A stretch of DNA of 64,000 bases from contig JAIQGF010000008.1 of NCBI GenBank assembly GCA_020072845.1, positions 124,001 to 188,000 on the forward strand, given 5' to 3'. The notes beneath the pieces are model-generated. The model was not told where the DNA came from and searched no databases. It worked only from the letters and a program-made list of their open reading frames with translations. Positions 5,037-13,371 of the stretch are shown here, one piece after another (positions within the stretch are counted from its first letter, which is position 1; every line of letters starts with the position of its first letter). A program made the translations under genes and the position numbers. The stretch is from Terriglobia bacterium. GTDB taxonomy: Bacteria; Acidobacteriota; Terriglobia; Terriglobales; Acidobacteriaceae.

Positions 5037-5111
5037 CGAGTACTGAGTACCTAGTACCGAACAAAACAGTCCGTGATTTCGAAGTACGGGTCTAGGTACT
5101 CAGTACTCAGT
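5037..5111. repeat. iterated-word hairpin element (word GTACTCA)
   Basis: The left arm (5037-5054, with TACTGAGTACCTAG) is complementary to the right arm (5093-5111, CTAGGTACTCAGTA), separated by about 38 bases. Each arm repeats the word GTACTCA/TGAGTAC. It lies between the end of the exported-protein operon and the SprT-like gene, where it could act as a terminator-like structure. The same architecture recurs elsewhere in the window. Confidence 0.75.
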
Positions 5112-5129
5112 GCTCAGTACTCTGATCCC

Positions 5130-5816
5130 ATGCATCCACGGCTCTTATCCATTCTGCAACGCGCCTATCGCGACCTGCGCCCGCGCGCGCCCATGCCCGA
5201 GTTCCGCGCCGAATTCTTTCCCTTCGCCAACATCAACAACACCATTCGCCTGCGCCAGGGAGTGGTGAAAGTGCGCGTCTCTGACCTGCTGGAAGGCGCG
5301 CCCGACGAAGTGCTCTACGCCATCGCGCACATCCTCATCGCCAAGCTCTACCGCAAACCGATTGATTCCGCGCTGGCGCGCCGTTACCGGCAGCACTGCG
5401 GGCGGCGCGACCTCAGCGCCAAGGCCCACCTGGTGCGGCAGGTGCGCGGGCGCAAGCGCATCGCCAGTGCCCGCGGGCGCGTTTACGACCTGGAAGCCAT
5501 CTTCGAGGAACTCAACACGCGCTTCTTCTTCGGGCTGCTCGCTCGCCCGCAAATGACCTGGAGCCGCGATCGCGCCCGCAACGCCCTCGGCCATTACGAC
5601 CCGGCGCACAACGCCATCGTCGTCAGCCGCGTCTTCGACCGCCCCCAGGTTCCCCGCTACGCCGTCGAGTACATCGTCTACCACGAAATGCTTCACCTCC
5701 GGCACCCGGTCCGGCTGCGCGGCAGCCGCCGTTGCGTCCATCCGCCCCAATTCCAGGCGGACGAAAAGCTCTTCCCCCAGCTTGAGGAGGCGAAGCGTTT
5801 TCTGAAAACCTTGTGA
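5130..5816 (+). CDS. SprT-like zinc metalloprotein
   Basis: 228 residues from the ATG at 5130 (MHPRLLSILQRAYRDLRP). The longer open frame starting at 5073 only translates an intergenic repeat. The C-terminal half carries HExxH in YHEMLHLRHPVR with a further His downstream (CVHPPQF), the arrangement of SprT/YgjP-like zinc peptidase-fold proteins. No signal peptide, so cytosolic. Monocistronic, following a hairpin repeat. The substrate is not predictable; related SprT-like proteins act on proteins bound to DNA, but that should not be transferred here without evidence. Confidence 0.7.
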   Translation: MHPRLLSILQRAYRDLRPRAPMPEFRAEFFPFANINNTIRLRQGVVKVRVSDLLEGAPDEVLYAIAHILIAKLYRKPIDSALARRYRQHCGRRDLSAKAHLVRQVRGRKRIASARGRVYDLEAIFEELNTRFFFGLLARPQMTWSRDRARNALGHYDPAHNAIVVSRVFDRPQVPRYAVEYIVYHEMLHLRHPVRLRGSRRCVHPPQFQADEKLFPQLEEAKRFLKTL

Positions 5817-5951: not shown

Positions 5952-5990
5952 ATTATCATTTTCATAGTTGAAAATGAATTTCAATTTCAT
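5952..5990. promoter_or_regulatory. Fur-box-like operator of the iron operon
   Basis: An AT-rich island in otherwise GC-rich DNA holding overlapping Fur-like half sites. The best is TGAAAATGAATTTCA (5969-5983), a 7-1-7 inverted repeat close to TGATAATnATTATCA, with ATTATCATTTTCAT just upstream. It ends about 24 bases before the FTR1 start. The position and the downstream iron genes support iron-responsive repression. Confidence 0.6.
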
Positions 5991-6013: not shown

Positions 6014-7264
6014 ATGCTTGAAGCCCTCATCGTTACCCTGCGCGAGGGGGTCGAGGCCGCGCTCATCGTCGGCATCACCCTCGCCTATATCGCCAAGATC
6101 GGCCGCCCCGACCTGCGCAAGGCCGTCTACGCCGCCCTGGGCGCCGCCTTCGTCGCCAGCATCGCGGTTGCCGTCGTGCTCTCGCGCCTCAGCTTCAACC
6201 AGGATGTCTTCGAAGGCTGGGTCATGCTGGTGGCGGCGGTCTTTGTCGTCACCATGATCATCTTCATGATGCGCACCGGCCGCAGGCTCAAGGGCGATAT
6301 CGAAGGCAAGGTCGGCGGCCTGGCGGCCAAAAGCTCCCGCCTCGGCCTGTTCGCGTTCGTCTTCCTCATGGTGCTGCGCGAAGGCGTGGAAACCGTCCTC
6401 ATCCTTTCCGCCGTCAACCTCAACAGCACCGAGTTGATGAGCTTCCTGGGGACGCTGCTGGGAGTCGCGCTGGCGGTCGTATTCGGCGTGACTTTCGTCA
6501 AGGGCAGCGTGCGCGTCAACCTGCAGAAATTCTTCCGCGTCACCACCGTCATTCTCTTTTTCGTCGCCTTCCAGCTCACGATTTCGGGATTGCACGAGCT
6601 CTCGGAAAACGGCGTGCTTCCCTCCAGCAAGCGTGAGATGTCGGTGATCGGCCCCATCGTGCGCAACGATTTCTTCTTCTTCGTTACCATCCTGGCTCTG
6701 GCCGGCATGATGGTGCTGTTCGAGTATCGCCGCCGCCAGACTCCGGTCGCCGCCACCGCTTCCGGCGCCGAGCGCCGCAAGGCGGAATGGACGGCCAAGC
6801 GCGAGCGCCGGTGGGCCGTGGCTGTCTACGCCAGTTCGTTCTTGTTCATCATGCTGATCACGGCGCAGTTCATCTACGCCAAGAGCGCCAGCGCGCTGTC
6901 GCCGGCGACCGAGGTCACGATCACCCAGGGTCAAGTGCGAATCCCCGTGGCCCAGGTCAACGACGGCGAGCTGCACCGCTATGTCGCCAAAATCGGCGGG
7001 AAAGAGATCCGCTTCTGGCTGATGCGCAAGCCCGACAACAGCATCGGCACCGTGCTCGATGCCTGCGAGATCTGCGGCGACGTCGGTTTCTACAAGAGCG
7101 GCAACACCATCATCTGCAAGAACTGCGCCGCTCCCATCAATCCGCAATCGGTCGGCCAGGCGGGCGGCTGCAATCCCATCCCGCTCAAGGCCACCGCCAC
7201 GGCCGACGCGGTCGTGATCGCCGAGGCGGACCTGGCCGCCAGCGCCCGGTATTTCAAGCACTGA
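6014..7264 (+). CDS. FTR1-family iron permease fused to DUF2318
   Basis: 416 residues. The N-terminal part is an FTR1/EfeU-type membrane permease with several hydrophobic segments and both REGxE iron-ligand motifs (REGVE at residues 10-14 and 122-126). After a last membrane segment near residue 280, the C-terminal domain resembles DUF2318, with paired CxxC motifs at 351/354 and 368/371 and a further Cys at 386. In many bacteria these are separate proteins of the P19/FetMP-type iron system; here they are one polypeptide. It is first in a tight operon with two ABC permeases and an ATPase, downstream of a Fur-like box. Likely role: iron import across the inner membrane, with the cysteine domain possibly handling electrons or metal. 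Confidence 0.88.
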   Translation: MLEALIVTLREGVEAALIVGITLAYIAKIGRPDLRKAVYAALGAAFVASIAVAVVLSRLSFNQDVFEGWVMLVAAVFVVTMIIFMMRTGRRLKGDIEGKVGGLAAKSSRLGLFAFVFLMVLREGVETVLILSAVNLNSTELMSFLGTLLGVALAVVFGVTFVKGSVRVNLQKFFRVTTVILFFVAFQLTISGLHELSENGVLPSSKREMSVIGPIVRNDFFFFVTILALAGMMVLFEYRRRQTPVAATASGAERRKAEWTAKRERRWAVAVYASSFLFIMLITAQFIYAKSASALSPATEVTITQGQVRIPVAQVNDGELHRYVAKIGGKEIRFWLMRKPDNSIGTVLDACEICGDVGFYKSGNTIICKNCAAPINPQSVGQAGGCNPIPLKATATADAVVIAEADLAASARYFKH

Positions 7265-7268
7265 CGCC

Positions 7269-8534
7269 ATGTTTGCCCGCATGCTCTATCAATCGTTCTG
7301 TCGCCAGCGGCGGCGCAAGCTGCTCGCCGGGATCGCCATCACGCTGGGCGTCTCGGTGGCGACCGCGATGATTGCCGTCGCCACCGACATCGGCGACAAG
7401 ATCAACCGCGAGCTGCGCACCTACGGCGCCAACCTCGTGCTCACGCCCGACGAAGACACGCTGAACGTGGAGATCGGCGGCGTCAACCTCAAGCCCGCCA
7501 GCGACGGCGCTTACTTGAACGAATCGGACCTGCTGAGGATCAACGGAATGTTCTGGCAGCACAACGTCGTGGGATTCTCCCCCATGCTGGACGTGCCGGT
7601 TACCATCCACAACGGATCGGCTGCGCAACCAGTGCAGCTTCTCGGAACTTATTTCGCCAAGCGGCTGCCCTTCGGCAAGGAAGGATTCACCACCGGCGTG
7701 CGCACCACGCATCCATGGTGGAAAGTGAGCGGCGCCTGGCCGGATGACGAATCCAGCGATGTTCTGCTCGGCGAGCGCCTGGCGCAGCAACTCGGCCGCA
7801 AACCCGGAGATGAAGTTCAGGTCGCTGGCCGCAACCTCCGCGTGGTGGGCATTCTTTCTTCCGACGGCGCGGAAGATAACCAGATCGTTGTCCCGCTGGC
7901 GCTGGCGCAGCAGATTCTCGGACGTCCCGGCGCGGTCCGGCGCGTGCTTGTCAGCGCCATGACCAAGCCCGAGGATGCGCTCGCCCGTCGCGATCCCAAG
8001 ACCATGTCGCCGGAGCTGTACGATCGCTGGTTCTGCTCGCCCTACGCCAACTCCATCGCCCATGACCTGCAGCAGACCATTCCGCACTCGCGCGCCGAGC
8101 AGATCCGCCAGGTCGCGCAGAATGAAGGCACGGTGCTGGAGCGCATCAAGGGCCTGATGCTGCTGGTGACTTTCGCCGCTCTGCTCGCCTCCGCCCTCGC
8201 GGTCTCGGCCGCCATGGCAACCGCCATCTTCGAGCGCCGCGGCGAGGTCGGGCTGATGAAAGCCCTGGGCGCGGGCAACGCCGCGGTCGCCACCCTGTTC
8301 TTCGCCGAAGCGGCGCTGCTGGCCCTGATCGGCGGCACTGCCGGATTCGCTTTCGGCAACCTCATGGCGCGGCAGATCGGGCGCTGGGTTTTTGATTCCA
8401 GCATCGCCATCCAGCCGGTGCTCTTCCCGGTCGTGATTGCCTTGGCCATTGTCGTGACCTTTGCCGGCAGCGCGGCTTCCATCCGCAAGGCAATGAAGTT
8501 CGAGCCGATCATGGTGCTGCGAGGCGACGCATGA
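7269..8534 (+). CDS. ABC transporter permease, FtsX/MacB type (iron operon)
   Basis: 421 residues. An N-terminal membrane anchor (after MFARMLYQSFCRQRRRK), a large periplasmic domain, then three C-terminal membrane segments typical of FtsX-type permeases, with the cytosolic signature ERRGEVGLMKALGAGNAAV. It starts 4 bases after the FTR1-DUF2318 gene and its stop overlaps the next gene by 4 bases. By analogy with FTR1-DUF2318-ABC clusters (for example the Campylobacter p19 locus), it probably works with the neighbouring permease and ATPase in iron delivery, not antibiotic efflux. Confidence 0.85.
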   Translation: MFARMLYQSFCRQRRRKLLAGIAITLGVSVATAMIAVATDIGDKINRELRTYGANLVLTPDEDTLNVEIGGVNLKPASDGAYLNESDLLRINGMFWQHNVVGFSPMLDVPVTIHNGSAAQPVQLLGTYFAKRLPFGKEGFTTGVRTTHPWWKVSGAWPDDESSDVLLGERLAQQLGRKPGDEVQVAGRNLRVVGILSSDGAEDNQIVVPLALAQQILGRPGAVRRVLVSAMTKPEDALARRDPKTMSPELYDRWFCSPYANSIAHDLQQTIPHSRAEQIRQVAQNEGTVLERIKGLMLLVTFAALLASALAVSAAMATAIFERRGEVGLMKALGAGNAAVATLFFAEAALLALIGGTAGFAFGNLMARQIGRWVFDSSIAIQPVLFPVVIALAIVVTFAGSAASIRKAMKFEPIMVLRGDA

Positions 8535-9652
8535 CTCGTCAACGCACCGGCAGCCGCAACGCGATGTTCTTCCGCATGCTGATGCGGGCCACCATGGTCA
8601 AACCGGGCCGCGTGATCTCGGCGCTGCTGGCCGTGGTAGTGGCCGCGTCGGTCGCCACCGCGATGATGAACCTGTACGTGGATGTCCAGGCCAAGCTCAG
8701 GAAAGAATTCCGCAGCTACGGCGCGAACGTGATTGTGGTCGCGCGTGACGGCCAAACGCTGCCCGCCGAAGCCCTCACCCGCATTGAAAGCGTGCTCGGC
8801 AACCGCGGCCTGGCAGTTCCCTTTGCTTATGCCGTCGCACGCACCGGCAAAGGCGCGCCGGTGGTGGTTGCCGGCACCGACATGGAGCGCGTGCGCAAGC
8901 TGGACGCGTGGTGGTCGGTGACCGCATGGCCCAGCGCGCCACGTTCCGCGCTCATCGGCGCGCACGCGGCGCCCGTCGTCTCGCCCGACAACCAGCCATT
9001 CACGCTGAGTTTCGACAACCGCACCGTGGAACTGACTGCCGCGGGCACGCTGCGCACCGGCGCTGCTGAAGACAGCCGCGTCTACCTCGACCTGAAAGAC
9101 TTCACCGCGTGGACCGGCGTGCAGCCGTCCTCCATCGAGATCGGCGCCGGCGGCACGCCGGAGGAAATCAACGGCATCATCAGCCAACTGGCCACCGCAC
9201 TGCCTGCCGCGGAAGTTCGTCCGGTGCGGCAGATCGTCGAGGGCGAAGCCCGCGTGCTGGGCAAGACGCGCGCCACGCTGCTGGCCGCGGTCAGCATGAT
9301 CATCCTCACCGCCGCGTTATGCGTGCTCGCCACGCTCACCGCCTGGGTGCTCGACCGCCGCCGCGACTTCGCCATCATGAAAGCCCTGGGCGCTTCCGAG
9401 CGCCTGGTCAACGGATTCTTCGCCGCCGAAGCTGCCGCCCTGGGCGCCGCCGGAGCGGTGATAGGATTTGCCATCGGCATTGGGGTGGCGGCCTGGATCG
9501 GTCGCGTCAATTTTCACGCTGCCGTGGTGCCGCGCTTCGGGGTGTTCCCTGCCGTGTTCGCCGGCAGCGTGGCCGTGGCTTTGATCTCGGCTGTGCTGCC
9601 CATCAGCCTATTGCGCCGCGTGCAGCCTGCTACCATTCTGAGGGGAGAGTGA
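8531..9652 (+). CDS. second FtsX/MacB-type ABC permease (iron operon)
   Basis: 373 residues, a paralog of the preceding permease: one N-terminal membrane segment, a periplasmic domain and three C-terminal segments, with DRRRDFAIMKALGASERLV before the penultimate pair. The ATG overlaps the previous stop (ATGA), implying coupled translation and a heteromeric permease. An internal ATG at MFFRML (11 codons in) is an alternative start. The ATPase gene follows after a single base. Confidence 0.85.
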   Translation: MTRQRTGSRNAMFFRMLMRATMVKPGRVISALLAVVVAASVATAMMNLYVDVQAKLRKEFRSYGANVIVVARDGQTLPAEALTRIESVLGNRGLAVPFAYAVARTGKGAPVVVAGTDMERVRKLDAWWSVTAWPSAPRSALIGAHAAPVVSPDNQPFTLSFDNRTVELTAAGTLRTGAAEDSRVYLDLKDFTAWTGVQPSSIEIGAGGTPEEINGIISQLATALPAAEVRPVRQIVEGEARVLGKTRATLLAAVSMIILTAALCVLATLTAWVLDRRRDFAIMKALGASERLVNGFFAAEAAALGAAGAVIGFAIGIGVAAWIGRVNFHAAVVPRFGVFPAVFAGSVAVALISAVLPISLLRRVQPATILRGE

Positions 9653-9653
9653 A

Positions 9654-10889
9654 ATGATCCGGCTCGTCAACGTCGCGAGAGAATATCCGGCGAAAGCCGA
9701 CGCCAATGGCGGTGTCATCAAGGCGCTCGACAATGTTTCGTTGTCGGTGGCGCCCGGCGAATGGCTGGCGATGATGGGTCCTTCGGGCTCGGGAAAATCC
9801 ACGCTGGTCAACCTCATCGGCTGCCTCGATCGGCCGTCGGCGGGCGAAATCTGGCTCGACGGCGAAAATGTTGCCCACCTCTCCGGCTCCGACCTCAACC
9901 GCGTGCGCGCCGAGAAAATCGGCTTCGTCTTCCAGCAGTTCCACCTGATTCCCTACCTGACCGCGCTGGAAAACGTCATGCTGGCGCAGTATTTTCACAG
10001 CATGACCGACGAGCCGGAAGCGCTCAACGCGCTGGAGCGCGTCGGACTGCGCGACCGGGCGCAGCATCTGCCCGCGCACCTTTCCGGCGGCGAGCAGCAG
10101 CGGGTCTGCATCGCGCGCGCCCTGATCAACGATCCCAAGATCGTGCTCGCCGACGAGCCCACCGGCAACCTCGACGCGCTCAACGAAGAGATCGTCATGC
10201 GCCTGCTCCGCGAACTGCACCAGCAGGGCCGGACCATCGTCATGGTGACCCACGATCCAACGGTGGCGCGCATGGCGGACCGGCGCGTCGAGCTGCATCA
10301 CGGAAAAATCGCCGCCAGCGAAACCTTTGCGCTGCGCGACGAAGAGCAGATTGACGAAATCCTGGAGGAAATCTGGGTTCTCCAGGAACACGGCGAAGGC
10401 GCGGAGTTGGGGCGCATGGAAGTCCACGGCCCCGGGACTTTGCCGCCGTCGCTGGCGGTGGAGCGCATGTCCGAGCTGGGACTGGTGACCACCGCGCCGC
10501 ATCCACCGCAGCCGCATGGTCACAAGCACGTGGTGAATCCCTGCCACGACGCCATGATCTACAGCGGCGAAATCCCCCCCGACGGCAGCATGCTGATTGA
10601 GTTCACCGAGCGCGGGCGCAAGCGCGCCGCCGACGTCATCCGCCGGCATCGCCTGGCGGAAATGCTGTTTACCGAAAGCCTGGGCATGATCAACGAAGAC
10701 GAGATCGAACAGCAGGCGTGCAAGTTCGAGCACATCCTCTCACCCGAGGCGACGGAAAAGATCTGCGCGTTCCTCGGCCACCCGAAAACCTGCCCGCACG
10801 GCGCGTCGATTCCCCCCGGCGAGTGCTGCTCGCGGCCCGCGGCGGAGAACATGCAGCGCCTGTTCGCGCCGGCTCGGGCGCGGAAGTAG
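9654..10889 (+). CDS. ABC ATPase fused to a DtxR/MntR-like metal-sensor domain
   Basis: 411 residues. Residues 1-225 are a LolD/MacB-type ATPase: Walker [10 protein letters not shown] (42-50), signature LSGGEQQRV (143-151), Walker B IVLADEPT (163-170) and switch His200. Residues about 229-395 resemble a metalloregulator of the DtxR family: a winged-helix-like part ending [10 protein letters not shown], then [19 protein letters not shown] and CKFEH. The canonical ligand pairs appear to be present: H332/E336 (DtxR H79/E83) and C356/E359/H360 (C102/E105/H106), while E235/E238 align with MntR D8/E11. The C-terminal SH3-like domain is absent; a Cys-rich tail (TCPHG ... ECC) follows. It is last in the iron operon, so iron could directly tune transport or transcription. 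The ATPase call is certain; the sensor call is strong from the motifs. Confidence 0.88.
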
Positions 10890-10918: not shown

Positions 10919-12952
10919 TCATTTGAGCAACTCGGCAATTTCGTTGCGGCCGAGCGCCTTCGCTCGCTGATACATAGTCAACCTCACCTGACCTAAGCGT
11001 TGATTAGCGTGGGGATCCGCGCCGTGGGCGAGCAGTAGCTTCACCATGCTCACGTCGCCGACAACGATGGCGTCGGTCAAGACTGGTGCGTCGGGGTTGG
11101 CGCCCCGGCTCATGAGAAACCCAGCGGTCTGTTTGTCGTCGGCACGGACGGCCCAGTTCAGAGGCCTCAATTCATGTTTATCGGTCGTGTTCACCAGCGC
11201 CGGATCACTCGCCAGATAGTCCGTCATAAGGTCTCGCCGTCCAAGCATGACGGCCTGAACGAAGGTCGGATGCGGGATATAGGACGCGAGCAACTGGACC
11301 ACGGGGGCGTAGCGGTCGTGATCGAATCCCATGCATGCGACGGCCAGTTGTAGGGGATCTTGGTCGCTCGCGCCTCCGACCGGCCAGAACCGGCGCGTGC
11401 TCGAAGCCGCAAGGGACGGGTCTTCTGCCAGGAACTTTCGCACCGCTTCCGTCTTGCCGAGCTGCAGCGCGTCGAAGAAATTCAATCGGGCGCCGTGCTG
11501 CAGTAACAGGTCGGCGGTAGCTCTCAATTGGGGAACGCGTGCAGCCGCAAAGGCTGCCTCGTCCAGGGCAGTGCGACGGTAAATGTCGGTCACGTTGGGA
11601 TCCGCGCCGCGGCCAAGCAGTAGCGCGACCATTTCGGGGTAGCGAATCGCGTGGCTCAGCGGCGTACTGCCCATGCCGCTGTCCTGCGCATTCACATCAG
11701 CGCCAGCGGCGATCAGCAACGTCGCCAACTCGGGGCCGCGACGGGAGCGGGTTGCGAGCGCGATCATGAGGGGCGTCTGGCCTTCGCGGCCGCGCACATT
11801 CACGAGTGAAGGATCGCCGCGCAGCTCGTCCACCGCTTTCTCGACGTTCCCTTGCCACATCAGTTGGAGAAAAGCCATCCCCTTGGGGGTCGTCGGCCAG
11901 ACCTTGTGGCGCAACGCCGCAGTTGCGTCCTGTATCTGCACGGCGGCGAGCGGGACAACGGCCACGGCGGCGGCCAACAAGGCGGTTAAAGTAAGCCGCG
12001 AGAGCCGGTGGCGCGGTCTGGGTTCCAGGATCGAGCGCAGGCGCCGCTCGAAGCGCGGGCAGCCGGCCATGCCAACGGCGGCGCGGTGCAAGCTGCCAAA
12101 GCGCACGTCCACGGCGAGCGATAGCAGGTCAGACGCATAGTCCGATGCGCGCGCTCCGGCGGCAATGACGGCGTCATCGCAGGCAATTTCACGCTCGACG
12201 CGCATTCGCCTGGTGGCCAGCCAGACGAGGGGGTTATACCAGCAAAGGGCGCATGCCAATCCGGCCAGCATCTGTGAGGCAGTGTCGAATCGCTGGACGT
12301 GGGTTATCTCGTGCAGGAGCACGTGCTCGATCCGCGCCTGGTTCCACTCGATCGCCGACGCGGGTAGTACGATGCGCGCATGCAGGATTCCCCAGGTAAG
12401 CGGGACATCTGACCGCTCACTTACCAAGAGGGTGATGGGCAAGGCAATGCCACGCTCCGCCACGAGACGGTTGAACGTCTGCAACAAGGAGCCGGGAACA
12501 AGATGCCCGCGCGTCGAGATGCGCGCGAGTTGTATGCGCGCCATCAGCATTCGAAACAGCAGAAGCCCTGCACCCAGCAACCACGCACCCGAGAAAAGCG
12601 GCGCCCAGTTGAAATTTCGCGGCGAAGGCACGTGGAGCGGTCGAGCCGGCAAGTTCCCGCTGAACGCAGCCGGCGGCGCCGCTCTTGCCGGTATCGGACC
12701 CGCGGCTTGCCTCCAGGAATCGGTGGAAACGAATTGCGGGGTTCGCAGTTTGTACTGCCAGGGCAATAAAGGACCGGCCACACTAACAACTGTGAGCAGC
12801 ATGGCAACGGCCCACACCAGGTGAAGCGCAGCGCTCGAATGCTTACGCAGCGTGTACGTCACTGCGGCGGCCACCGCGATGATCAGCGAGGATTTGATCA
12901 AGGCGAGCACCACTCCGCCGGGACCACCAAGCGCGATCAGCCATGCCGGCAT
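10919..12952 (-). CDS. BlaR1-like M56 membrane peptidase with C-terminal ankyrin repeats
   Basis: 677 residues. N-terminal membrane segments, then a zinc peptidase domain with HEITHVQRFD (HExxH) and the following EREIACDDAVIAAG typical of M56/BlaR1 proteins, another membrane segment, and a C-terminal half of ankyrin repeats (for example GQTPLMIALATRSRRG, GSTPLSHAIRYPEMVALLL, RTALDEAAFAAA). The ATG at 12952 is chosen over a GTG at 12958 because GGGGAGG lies 5 bases upstream. It is transcribed right after the BlaI-like repressor. BlaR1-type proteins cleave BlaI on signal; here the usual penicillin-sensor domain is replaced by ankyrins, so the signal is probably a protein. Confidence 0.85.
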   Translation of the reverse strand: MPAWLIALGGPGGVVLALIKSSLIIAVAAAVTYTLRKHSSAALHLVWAVAMLLTVVSVAGPLLPWQYKLRTPQFVSTDSWRQAAGPIPARAAPPAAFSGNLPARPLHVPSPRNFNWAPLFSGAWLLGAGLLLFRMLMARIQLARISTRGHLVPGSLLQTFNRLVAERGIALPITLLVSERSDVPLTWGILHARIVLPASAIEWNQARIEHVLLHEITHVQRFDTASQMLAGLACALCWYNPLVWLATRRMRVEREIACDDAVIAAGARASDYASDLLSLAVDVRFGSLHRAAVGMAGCPRFERRLRSILEPRPRHRLSRLTLTALLAAAVAVVPLAAVQIQDATAALRHKVWPTTPKGMAFLQLMWQGNVEKAVDELRGDPSLVNVRGREGQTPLMIALATRSRRGPELATLLIAAGADVNAQDSGMGSTPLSHAIRYPEMVALLLGRGADPNVTDIYRRTALDEAAFAAARVPQLRATADLLLQHGARLNFFDALQLGKTEAVRKFLAEDPSLAASSTRRFWPVGGASDQDPLQLAVACMGFDHDRYAPVVQLLASYIPHPTFVQAVMLGRRDLMTDYLASDPALVNTTDKHELRPLNWAVRADDKQTAGFLMSRGANPDAPVLTDAIVVGDVSMVKLLLAHGADPHANQRLGQVRLTMYQRAKALGRNEIAELLK

Positions 12953-12954
12953 AA

Positions 12955-13326
12955 TCACCTCCCCTGCTCCCGTGCCTGACGCACCATGTTGCGCAGCCGA
13001 TCCAGATCGTTCTGGGTCAGTTTTGCATCGGAAATGTCCAGCAGCGCCGCCATGGCATCCTTCGTGGACCCGCCAAAGAACGTGGCGACCATGTAGCGCA
13101 GCGCGGAGAGCGCCGCCTTGTTGCGTGGAGTTGTGGGGGCGTAGACGTAACGCAGCTTGTCCTGCCGATGGCGTACCAGTCCTTTGCGTTCCAGCAGTGC
13201 GAGCATGCCGCGAACCGCAGAATACGTCGGCGGATTCGGTATCTGTTCGCGCACCTGCGCCACGCCGGCCTCACCGAAACGGTAGAGGATGTCGAGAATC
13301 TGCCTTTCGCGTGGTCCGAGTTTCAT
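12955..13326 (-). CDS. BlaI/MecI/CopY-family repressor
   Basis: 123 residues: an N-terminal winged helix (LGPRERQILDILYRFGEAGVA ... YSAVRGMLALLERKGLV) and a C-terminal dimerisation/cleavage region. The start at 13326 (MKLGP) fits the family; a 3-codon longer start at 13335 would place the start codon inside a palindrome that is probably the operator. It precedes the M56-ankyrin peptidase by 2 bases in the same operon, the classic repressor plus sensor-protease arrangement. Confidence 0.88.
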   Translation of the reverse strand: MKLGPRERQILDILYRFGEAGVAQVREQIPNPPTYSAVRGMLALLERKGLVRHRQDKLRYVYAPTTPRNKAALSALRYMVATFFGGSTKDAMAALLDISDAKLTQNDLDRLRNMVRQAREQGR

Positions 13327-13332
13327 AGATAT

Positions 13333-13371
13333 CATGCTATTCCATTAGCATGTGCCATTACATTAGCATAT
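13333..13371. promoter_or_regulatory. putative BlaI-family operator
   Basis: The sequence CATGCTATTCCATTAGCATG (13333-13352) is an inverted repeat (CATGCTA-N6-TAGCATG). A second half site, CATTAGCATA, lies at 13361-13370. It is immediately upstream of the BlaI-like gene in an AT-rich stretch. Position and symmetry fit autoregulation of the repressor/peptidase operon; no binding evidence is available. Confidence 0.55.

Follow-up and report, generated by a model that had tools for sequence, protein, structure and literature searches.

A DtxR-type metal-binding domain fused to the ABC ATPase of an FTR1/FtrD-type iron-uptake operon and its possible role in iron feedback

The DNA analysed here (the window, a stretch of 64,000 nucleotides from a Terriglobia bacterium) contains an FTR1/FtrD-type iron-uptake operon whose ABC ATPase continues in frame into a domain derived from the metal-dependent regulators of the DtxR family. 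This domain has largely lost its DNA-reading part. We give roughly even chances to the reading that it serves as a sensor, no longer DNA-binding, through which iron feeds back on the ATPase; the pump probably feels the iron that it helps to import and slows itself. Taken together, the fused architecture, the ligands of DtxR type and the setting among iron-import genes would be fitted best by allosteric metal sensing by the ATPase.

The gene occupies 9654-10889 on the forward strand as a single uninterrupted frame of 411 amino acids. Residues 1 to about 222 match the ABC ATPase profile PF00005 (E 2.7e-36), and model alignment and motif conservation assign this part (residues 1-222, 9654..10319) to the MacB/LolD/MJ0796 type. 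Residues 318-387 (10605..10814) match PF02742 (Fe_dep_repr_C), the DtxR-family metal-binding/dimerisation domain, at 69 of its 70 positions (E 2.7e-27; 95 bits for a cut-off of 27); this assignment agrees with the alignment to IdeR-type chains and with conservation. When the C-terminal part alone was searched against the PDB, DtxR/IdeR chains were returned (best E 2.4e-13). The fusion of an ABC ATPase to a DtxR-type domain, proposed in the preliminary description, is therefore present in one frame, with the qualification that only the C-terminal DtxR profile is recognised: the N-terminal one, PF01325, gives no match in the window protein at E ≤ 1. All 44 proteins of our fusion alignment (the window protein and 43 fused homologues, L083 and L126 being left out because their gene starts are missing) match PF02742.

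The ATPase was described from the outset as a complete LolD-type enzyme, and the alignment agrees. Its catalytic motifs are intact, with Walker A K48, Q95, S144 and H200 each found in 44/44 rows and D167 and E168 each in 43/44, the remaining row having a gap. An AlphaFold2 model of the fusion (mean pLDDT 84.1, pTM 0.61) superposes through its ATPase on MJ0796 (Z 30.6, rmsd 2.0, 223 residues aligned) and on MacB (Z 30.3, rmsd 1.8, 224 aligned). The structure rank lists for the whole fusion model contain ATPases throughout and no DtxR among the matches listed, a comparison that hardly probes the C-terminal domain. Within the genus, every segment except the tail is under purifying selection (dN/dS 0.00-0.16). 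Since the frame is intact and under purifying selection and the fusion recurs in many genomes, chance and a broken-frame or assembly artefact were both rejected.

The fused gene closes an operon in which it is preceded, all on the forward strand, by an FTR1 iron permease fused in frame to an FtrD-like Cys-rich domain (6014..7264; PF03239 E 1.9e-36, PF10080 E 2.5e-30), an FtsX/MacB-type ABC permease (7269..8534; PF02687 E 1.8e-16, PF12704 E 4.1e-15) and a second, FtsX-type permease (8531..9652; PF02687 E 2e-17). REGVE occurs twice in the FTR1 part and CxxC twice in the FtrD part. No P19 gene lies between the FTR1 and FtrD-like parts in the window, both being encoded by one ORF, and no thioredoxin or FMN-binding gene was recognised among the large ORFs after the ATPase, where the next large ORF runs on the minus strand (10919-12958). 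By eye, this ORF resembles a BlaR1/M56 metalloprotease with ankyrin repeats, and a small BlaI/MecI-like ORF (12955-13335) adjoins it. On the other side, a SprT-like metalloprotease gene (5073-5816, also recognised by eye) stands directly upstream of the operon; a similar ORF is found upstream of FTR1 in loci L146 and L149, and on the opposite strand in L145.

Upstream of the operon we found a Fur-like inverted repeat (5970..5988). It agrees at 14 of 19 positions with the E. coli Fur consensus, a score reached by 1 of 200 dinucleotide shuffles in a test that stands per region, 24 regions having been tested. The same site occurs upstream of FTR1 in six further regions of the 24, three of the six from the window's genus; a 14/19 site is absent from the other 17, including all four regions of a genus, g4, whose operons are described below. 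Two of the g4 loci (L178 and L179) have a palindrome-like GACCAAWTTRGTC upstream of the operon instead of the Fur-like repeat, and regulation may be rewired there. The source genome encodes one Fur and a DtxR-type protein with a canonical helix-turn-helix (HTH) (L002). With these two proteins in the genome and a Fur-like site at the operon, transcription therefore has its own regulators. A search of the same genome with PF02421 gave seven matches (best 52.6 bits), which we take to be other GTPases.

H332, E336, C356, E359 and H360 had been named as DtxR-family landmarks, and alignment to DtxR/IdeR places them correctly, at positions that correspond to H79, E83, C102, E105 and H106 of DtxR. In the 44-row alignment H332 and E336 are invariant, and C356, E359 and H360 are kept in 41, 43 and 42 rows, respectively; these rows were partly selected for the ligands, because the seed peptides of the scan ([EQ]ACxFEHIL and RR[HQ]RLAExLF) cover these residues. 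We therefore also give the counts for 19 fusions chosen by domain similarity (L034 being omitted for its near-identity with the window's genus): all 19 have the C/E/H triad, E336 and the Cys motif described below, and H332 is present in 15/19 with Gln in the other four. The Cys motif, W241 and E245 lie outside the seed peptides. Four fusions depart from the triad, with Asp for Glu in L068, no Cys in L074, and neither Cys nor His in L114 and L120. Because L074, L114 and L120 lack C356, and two of them H360 as well, the DtxR-type Fe site cannot be essential everywhere.

A further pair, E235 and E238, had been likened to the MntR site. In a hand alignment with MntR, they fall on MntR D8 and E11, so that the positions stood; conservation held for E238 (37/44) and failed for E235, which is kept in just 11/44 fusions, His occupying the position in 29/44. 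A conserved MntR-type site at E235/E238 is weakened accordingly. The position of DtxR H98, E352 in the window protein, is also variable (His in 26/44, Glu in 7/44). In 24 rows 235 and 352 are both His, and in six they are both Glu, counts that ignore kinship; it looks as if there are two ligand styles.

The C-terminal part also carries a motif that the preliminary description had missed, C371-x8-C380-P-H382-G-x2-IP-x-G-x-C391-C392 (10764..10829). C371, C380, H382, C391 and C392 are each present in 44/44 fusions, and homologues without an ATPase have the four Cys in 33/33 and the His in 32/33. L074, L114 and L120 all retain the four Cys despite their damaged DtxR site. The motif was found in 0/12 canonical DtxR-type controls, although L002 and L187-L189 have CPHG with no CC, and the IdeR-type chains compared have no Cys at these positions. 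Residues 371-390 are modelled confidently in the fusion (block pLDDT 95 and 93); in the model of an unfused homologue the motif has pLDDT < 50. We take it to be a subfamily signature and a candidate second metal or Fe-S site. The C-x8-C-x10-CC spacing is not known from any cluster motif.

Another group of potential ligands, a His/Cys-rich insert in the wing (10500..10547; H283..H288-x-H290-K-x3-N295-x-C297-H298), was found in 9 of 65 fusion sequences of a redundant set, six from the window's family plus L136, L140 and L142, which group with that family in the ATPase tree. Among the sequences tested the insert is thus confined to the window's family and close kin, and it may be a third metal-binding element. 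Model confidence is low at residues 294-309.

Between the ATPase and the metal-binding domain lies a degenerate winged-helix region (residues 225-317, 10326..10604), delimited by AlphaFold2 secondary structure, by conservation and by its score against a profile of canonical DtxR HTH sequences. The model has a helix at 227-245, in which D234, W241 and E245 are invariant, a helix at 265-274 and strands at 278-282 and 313-317. The winged helix that had been expected in a structure model is thus represented by remnant helices and strands, with HTH helix 2 nearly absent: residues 252-254 alone are helical at its expected place (block pLDDT about 76). Against the HTH profile, 12 canonical proteins of the same phylum score 71-121 bits (leave-one-out), the window protein 13.3 bits, the 45 fusions and the window together 7.2-25.8 bits and the 33 unfused homologues 12.5-23.2 bits; shuffled fusion sequences reach at most 5.0 bits (216 of 300 scored). 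No PF01325 match was seen for the 44 fusions among the matches listed, which comprise 25 of 65 families, and six of the 33 unfused homologues match it weakly (best E 0.017). In the model of one of these homologues, L106, all three HTH helices are kept (4-21, 27-33 and 39-46), together with the wing strands. Descent from a winged helix is clear, and the fold has decayed further in the fusion. Conservation in the 44-row alignment follows the same division: the mean frequency of the majority residue is 0.80 in the metal domain, 0.77 in the ATPase and 0.47 in the HTH core, and the columns conserved at 95% number 32/75, 94/222 and 0/37, respectively. The FeoA/SH3 part is missing from the fusions, no more than 22 residues following the CC in 45 of them.

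When the C-terminal part was searched in 396 genomes of the window's phylum, 176 matched at E ≤ 1e-8. Among the 30 top-ranking places, 20 share their frame with an ABC ATPase, the window and its genus being counted with them, and the other 10 do not; the fused proteins belong to eight families of the phylum set (f1, f19, f23, f44, f49, f61, f67 and f81). A scan of genome contigs with the aligned C-terminal parts gave 467 relatives, of which 80 were kept. Forty-five of these are ATPase-DtxR fusions, every one from a record with a title such as Acidobacteria, Terriglobia or Acidiferrales. The other 35 include L130 and L134, in which a contig end cuts the gene and which were set apart by sequence as probable cut fusions, and leave 33 homologues without an ATPase, 27 of them in records titled Nitrospirae/Nitrospirota or Thermodesulfovibri-. 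Most of the fusions stand in such an FTR1 operon: 39 of the 45 fused loci have FTR1, FtrD and both permeases in the order of the window, and the remaining six begin inside the operon (two with FtrD and both permeases, two with both permeases, two with none of these). In the window's family, seven of seven additional operons with the fusion are complete. A single-genome oddity was rejected on this recurrence across the phylum genomes and among the kept relatives. Also rejected as extra fusions were other DtxR C-domain matches in long frames; the 12 places read, with frames of up to 899 aa, have the look of canonical DtxR-type proteins preceded by open sequence.

The whole protein, searched in 247 genomes, found a close ATPase in 34 acidobacterial genomes at E ≤ 1e-75: 17 have the fused form (the window, G001, G086, G204, 12 others read, and G094 from its coordinates alone), 16 the unfused form, and G055 makes up the number. 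The 16 comprise 14 genomes of genus g4 together with G008 and G042. In a quick IQ-TREE analysis of 105 ATPase domains, with SH-aLRT support only, the FTR1-linked ATPases separate from their paralogues (support 98), and the fused/unfused label needs two changes. The unfused rows are L174 (G008) and L182 (G042), both on long branches near the unresolved base, and a g4 clade of 12 rows (support 100), which lies closest to the fused proteins from the window's own family (support 87). One early gain and one loss in g4 would fit this tree, in which the order at the base is not firm. All four g4 operons read (L178, L179, L180 and L183) contain FTR1-FtrD and both permeases, and their ATPase, of 246-260 aa, lacks the domain. 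The operon is kept there without the domain, which is therefore dispensable, as expected of a regulator rather than of a core part.

The 33 unfused homologues all have PF02742 and a FeoA domain (PF04023). FeoB adjoins eight of them (L096, L099, L106, L122, L125, L128, L138 and L139), and a Fur gene is also near in five of these eight loci. For the other 25 no FeoB was found in the locus, four of the 25 having less than 3 kb upstream, and FeoB adjacency was not borne out as a rule. Seven of the 25 loci were read, and in six of them (L100, L067, L071, L079, L108 and L129; not L133) a gene that by eye is radical-SAM-like precedes the homologue. The archaeal locus L106 (2541-5809) contains FeoB, a small protein with, by eye, zinc-ribbon-like CxxC pairs, the Cys-motif DtxR-FeoA protein and, after it, a second DtxR-type ORF, which argues that the unfused homologue is not simply the regulator. 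Locus L139 (137-4012) lines up Fur, two ORFs that make up FeoB, the DtxR-FeoA protein with its Cys motif and an FTR1 permease. The L106 model matches MntR over residues 6-88 (Z 10.9, rmsd 2.3, 83 aligned) and IdeR over its whole length (Foldseek E 1.3e-10); the rmsd to IdeR is 19.8, and the placement of the L106 domains is therefore different or poor.

Iron feedback on the ATPase could work as follows. Iron entry via FTR1 would raise cytosolic Fe(II) or the Fe-S supply, and the sensor would bind Fe(II) or Fe-S at the DtxR-type site, at the Cys motif or at both. The PF02742-type fold is the dimerisation domain of DtxR. The sensor domains of two ATPase subunits might then pair, or change their pairing, and paired sensors would hold the ATPases in an inactive arrangement so that uptake slows. 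This logic would be that of transinhibition by MetN C2 and ModC, with an unrelated sensor fold. Here we infer which metal binds, that the domains dimerise, that binding inhibits instead of activating and, where we invoke one, the Fe-S cluster. The observations that favour feedback include the setting of the fusions in iron-uptake operons, the conserved ligands and Cys motif, the g4 operons that do without the domain, FeoA in all unfused homologues and FeoB beside eight of them, a metal domain that equals the ATPase in conservation, unlike the HTH core, and separate Fur and DtxR-type regulators in the genome. Against it speak the variation of E235 and of E352, the H98 equivalent, the loss of C356 in L074, L114 and L120, the 25 unfused homologues whose loci show no FeoB, and the absence of the domain from 16 of the 34 acidobacterial genomes in which a close ATPase was found, one genus accounting for 14 of the 16. 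In MacB/LolD-type transporters the ATPases are generally seen as motors of mechanotransmission, not of classical import. For this reason, and because the substrate of the permeases of the C. jejuni system is called unknown in PMC6083913, sensing of what is imported assumes coupling of the ATPase to FTR1.

The main rival of iron feedback on the ATPase is a sensor of oxygen or redox state, in which the Cys motif would hold an Fe-S cluster (or act as a Zn/thiolate switch) and its state would set the activity or stability of the ATPase, with the DtxR site secondary. The four Cys argue for it, invariant as they are in fusions and unfused homologues, absent from the controls and kept by the three fusions that lose parts of the DtxR site, and so do the confident model of residues 371-390 in the fusion and the FeoB neighbours of 8/33 unfused homologues. 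FeoC offers a precedent: according to PMC10710835, its Fe-S cluster is damaged by oxygen and it protects FeoB. The unfamiliar spacing, the pLDDT below 50 in the unfused homologue's model and the chance that the Cys form a structural Zn site speak against it, and we regard this rival as rather doubtful, though serious. As a structural add-on, the domain might simply stabilise the ATPase dimer, its metal sites being structural; the DtxR C-domain is a dimerisation domain, and the Cys motif could be a structural Zn site. Sensor ligands besides the Cys are kept in nearly all members, and g4 keeps the system without the domain; a purely structural add-on is for these reasons very unlikely.

Two further alternatives give the domain a different task. 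As an iron acceptor or chaperone without regulation, it would take Fe(II) from FTR1 at the membrane and hand it on, a role that would suit an iron-import operon and a protein with two candidate metal sites and, in the window's family, a His/Cys-rich loop. Such a carrier would be hard to reconcile with g4, where the operon is kept without it, or with its place on the ATPase and not on FTR1, which is itself fused to FtrD here; we hold it to be unlikely. The preliminary description had also raised the possibility of a moonlighting DNA-binding repressor of the operon. In such a case the C-terminal half would bind DNA and repress at high iron. PF02742 is normally found in repressors, the winged-helix remnant reaches 7-26 bits where shuffled sequences stop at 5, and the unfused proteins have three HTH helices in one model and six weak PF01325 matches. 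The HTH of the fusions is, however, degenerate and variable (13 bits against 71-121, no core column of 37 conserved, no PF01325 match in the window protein), and a moonlighting repressor is therefore unlikely. With the FeoA/SH3 part gone, and separate DtxR-type and Fur proteins and a Fur-like site before the operon, this proposal is not supported and is highly improbable.

Discussion of iron uptake in bacteria centres mostly on Fur or DtxR as transcriptional regulators. Iron feedback on the ATPase, if true, would be a direct and fast action of iron itself on an importer, and would show a gene regulator turning into an allosteric transporter part. Tentatively, and with less confidence than we have in that feedback, a wider scheme may be proposed, in which the domain is a portable brake of iron importers. 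A DtxR regulator would have lost DNA reading and gained an invariant four-Cys site, perhaps for Fe-S; in several phyla it would stand near FeoB as a partner linked to FeoA, and in many families of Acidobacteriota it would be built into the FTR1-linked ABC ATPase, providing direct post-translational iron feedback in both. If this is true, iron importers of two unrelated kinds would share one attached brake. The fused operons and the g4 operon without the domain form a natural pair that makes the question testable without engineering.

Judged by its sequence, the window's operon is an FTR1/P19-type iron-uptake system of the C. jejuni kind. According to PMC6083913, C. jejuni 1649-1656 are FTR1, P19, a membrane protein, permeases 1652 and 1653, ATPase 1654 and two thioredoxins. 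A Fur box precedes these genes, 33 species from six phyla have homologues, and deletion of 1651-1656 impairs iron acquisition. The two systems share the order FTR1, FtrD-like membrane protein, permease, permease, ATPase, as well as a Fur box upstream, in the window a Fur-like repeat. They differ in that FTR1 and FtrD are one protein in the window, with no P19 between them and no thioredoxin gene recognised beside the ATPase, and in that passages of PMC6083913 give 1654 as a cytoplasmic ATPase and speak of no sensor domain. An E. coli plasmid operon (CP088784.1, L206) has the same order (FTR1, iron transporter, Fe-S protein, permease, permease, ATPase, TlpA); its ATPase, 58.8% identical over residues 20-223, has 231 aa and ends without the domain. 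Among plasmid records 834 match the protein at E ≤ 1e-60, and none covers 80% of the query.

The fused domain shares with IdeR, DtxR and MntR the PF02742 domain and the primary ligands, and differs from them by its diverged HTH, the added Cys motif, the missing FeoA/SH3 part and the attached ATPase. The FeoA-bearing DtxR-like proteins beside FeoB have the same metal domain, Cys motif and low HTH score but are separate proteins that keep FeoA; PMC8980893 mentions that combinations of FeoA with DtxR domains were set aside. FeoC, a small winged-helix protein with Fe-S Cys and a partner of FeoB, can be likened by description to the winged-helix remnant and Cys motif of the window protein. The Cys of the latter, however, lie after the metal domain. 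Of the unfused homologues, 8/33 stand beside FeoB. The closest analogues in logic are MetNI and ModABC, for which PMC10710835 describes a C-terminal sensor on the ABC ATPase (MetN, ModC) that feeds back on transport. They resemble the window protein in having an extra C-terminal domain with ligand sites on the ATPase (predicted sites in the window protein), and their sensor folds and ligands (methionine; molybdate/tungstate) are not of DtxR type. No description of an ABC ATPase joined to a DtxR domain was found among the papers listed in searches of the open-licence PMC literature. An ABC ATPase with a C-terminal sensor is a known kind of protein; its DtxR origin, its Cys site and its iron context are new to us.
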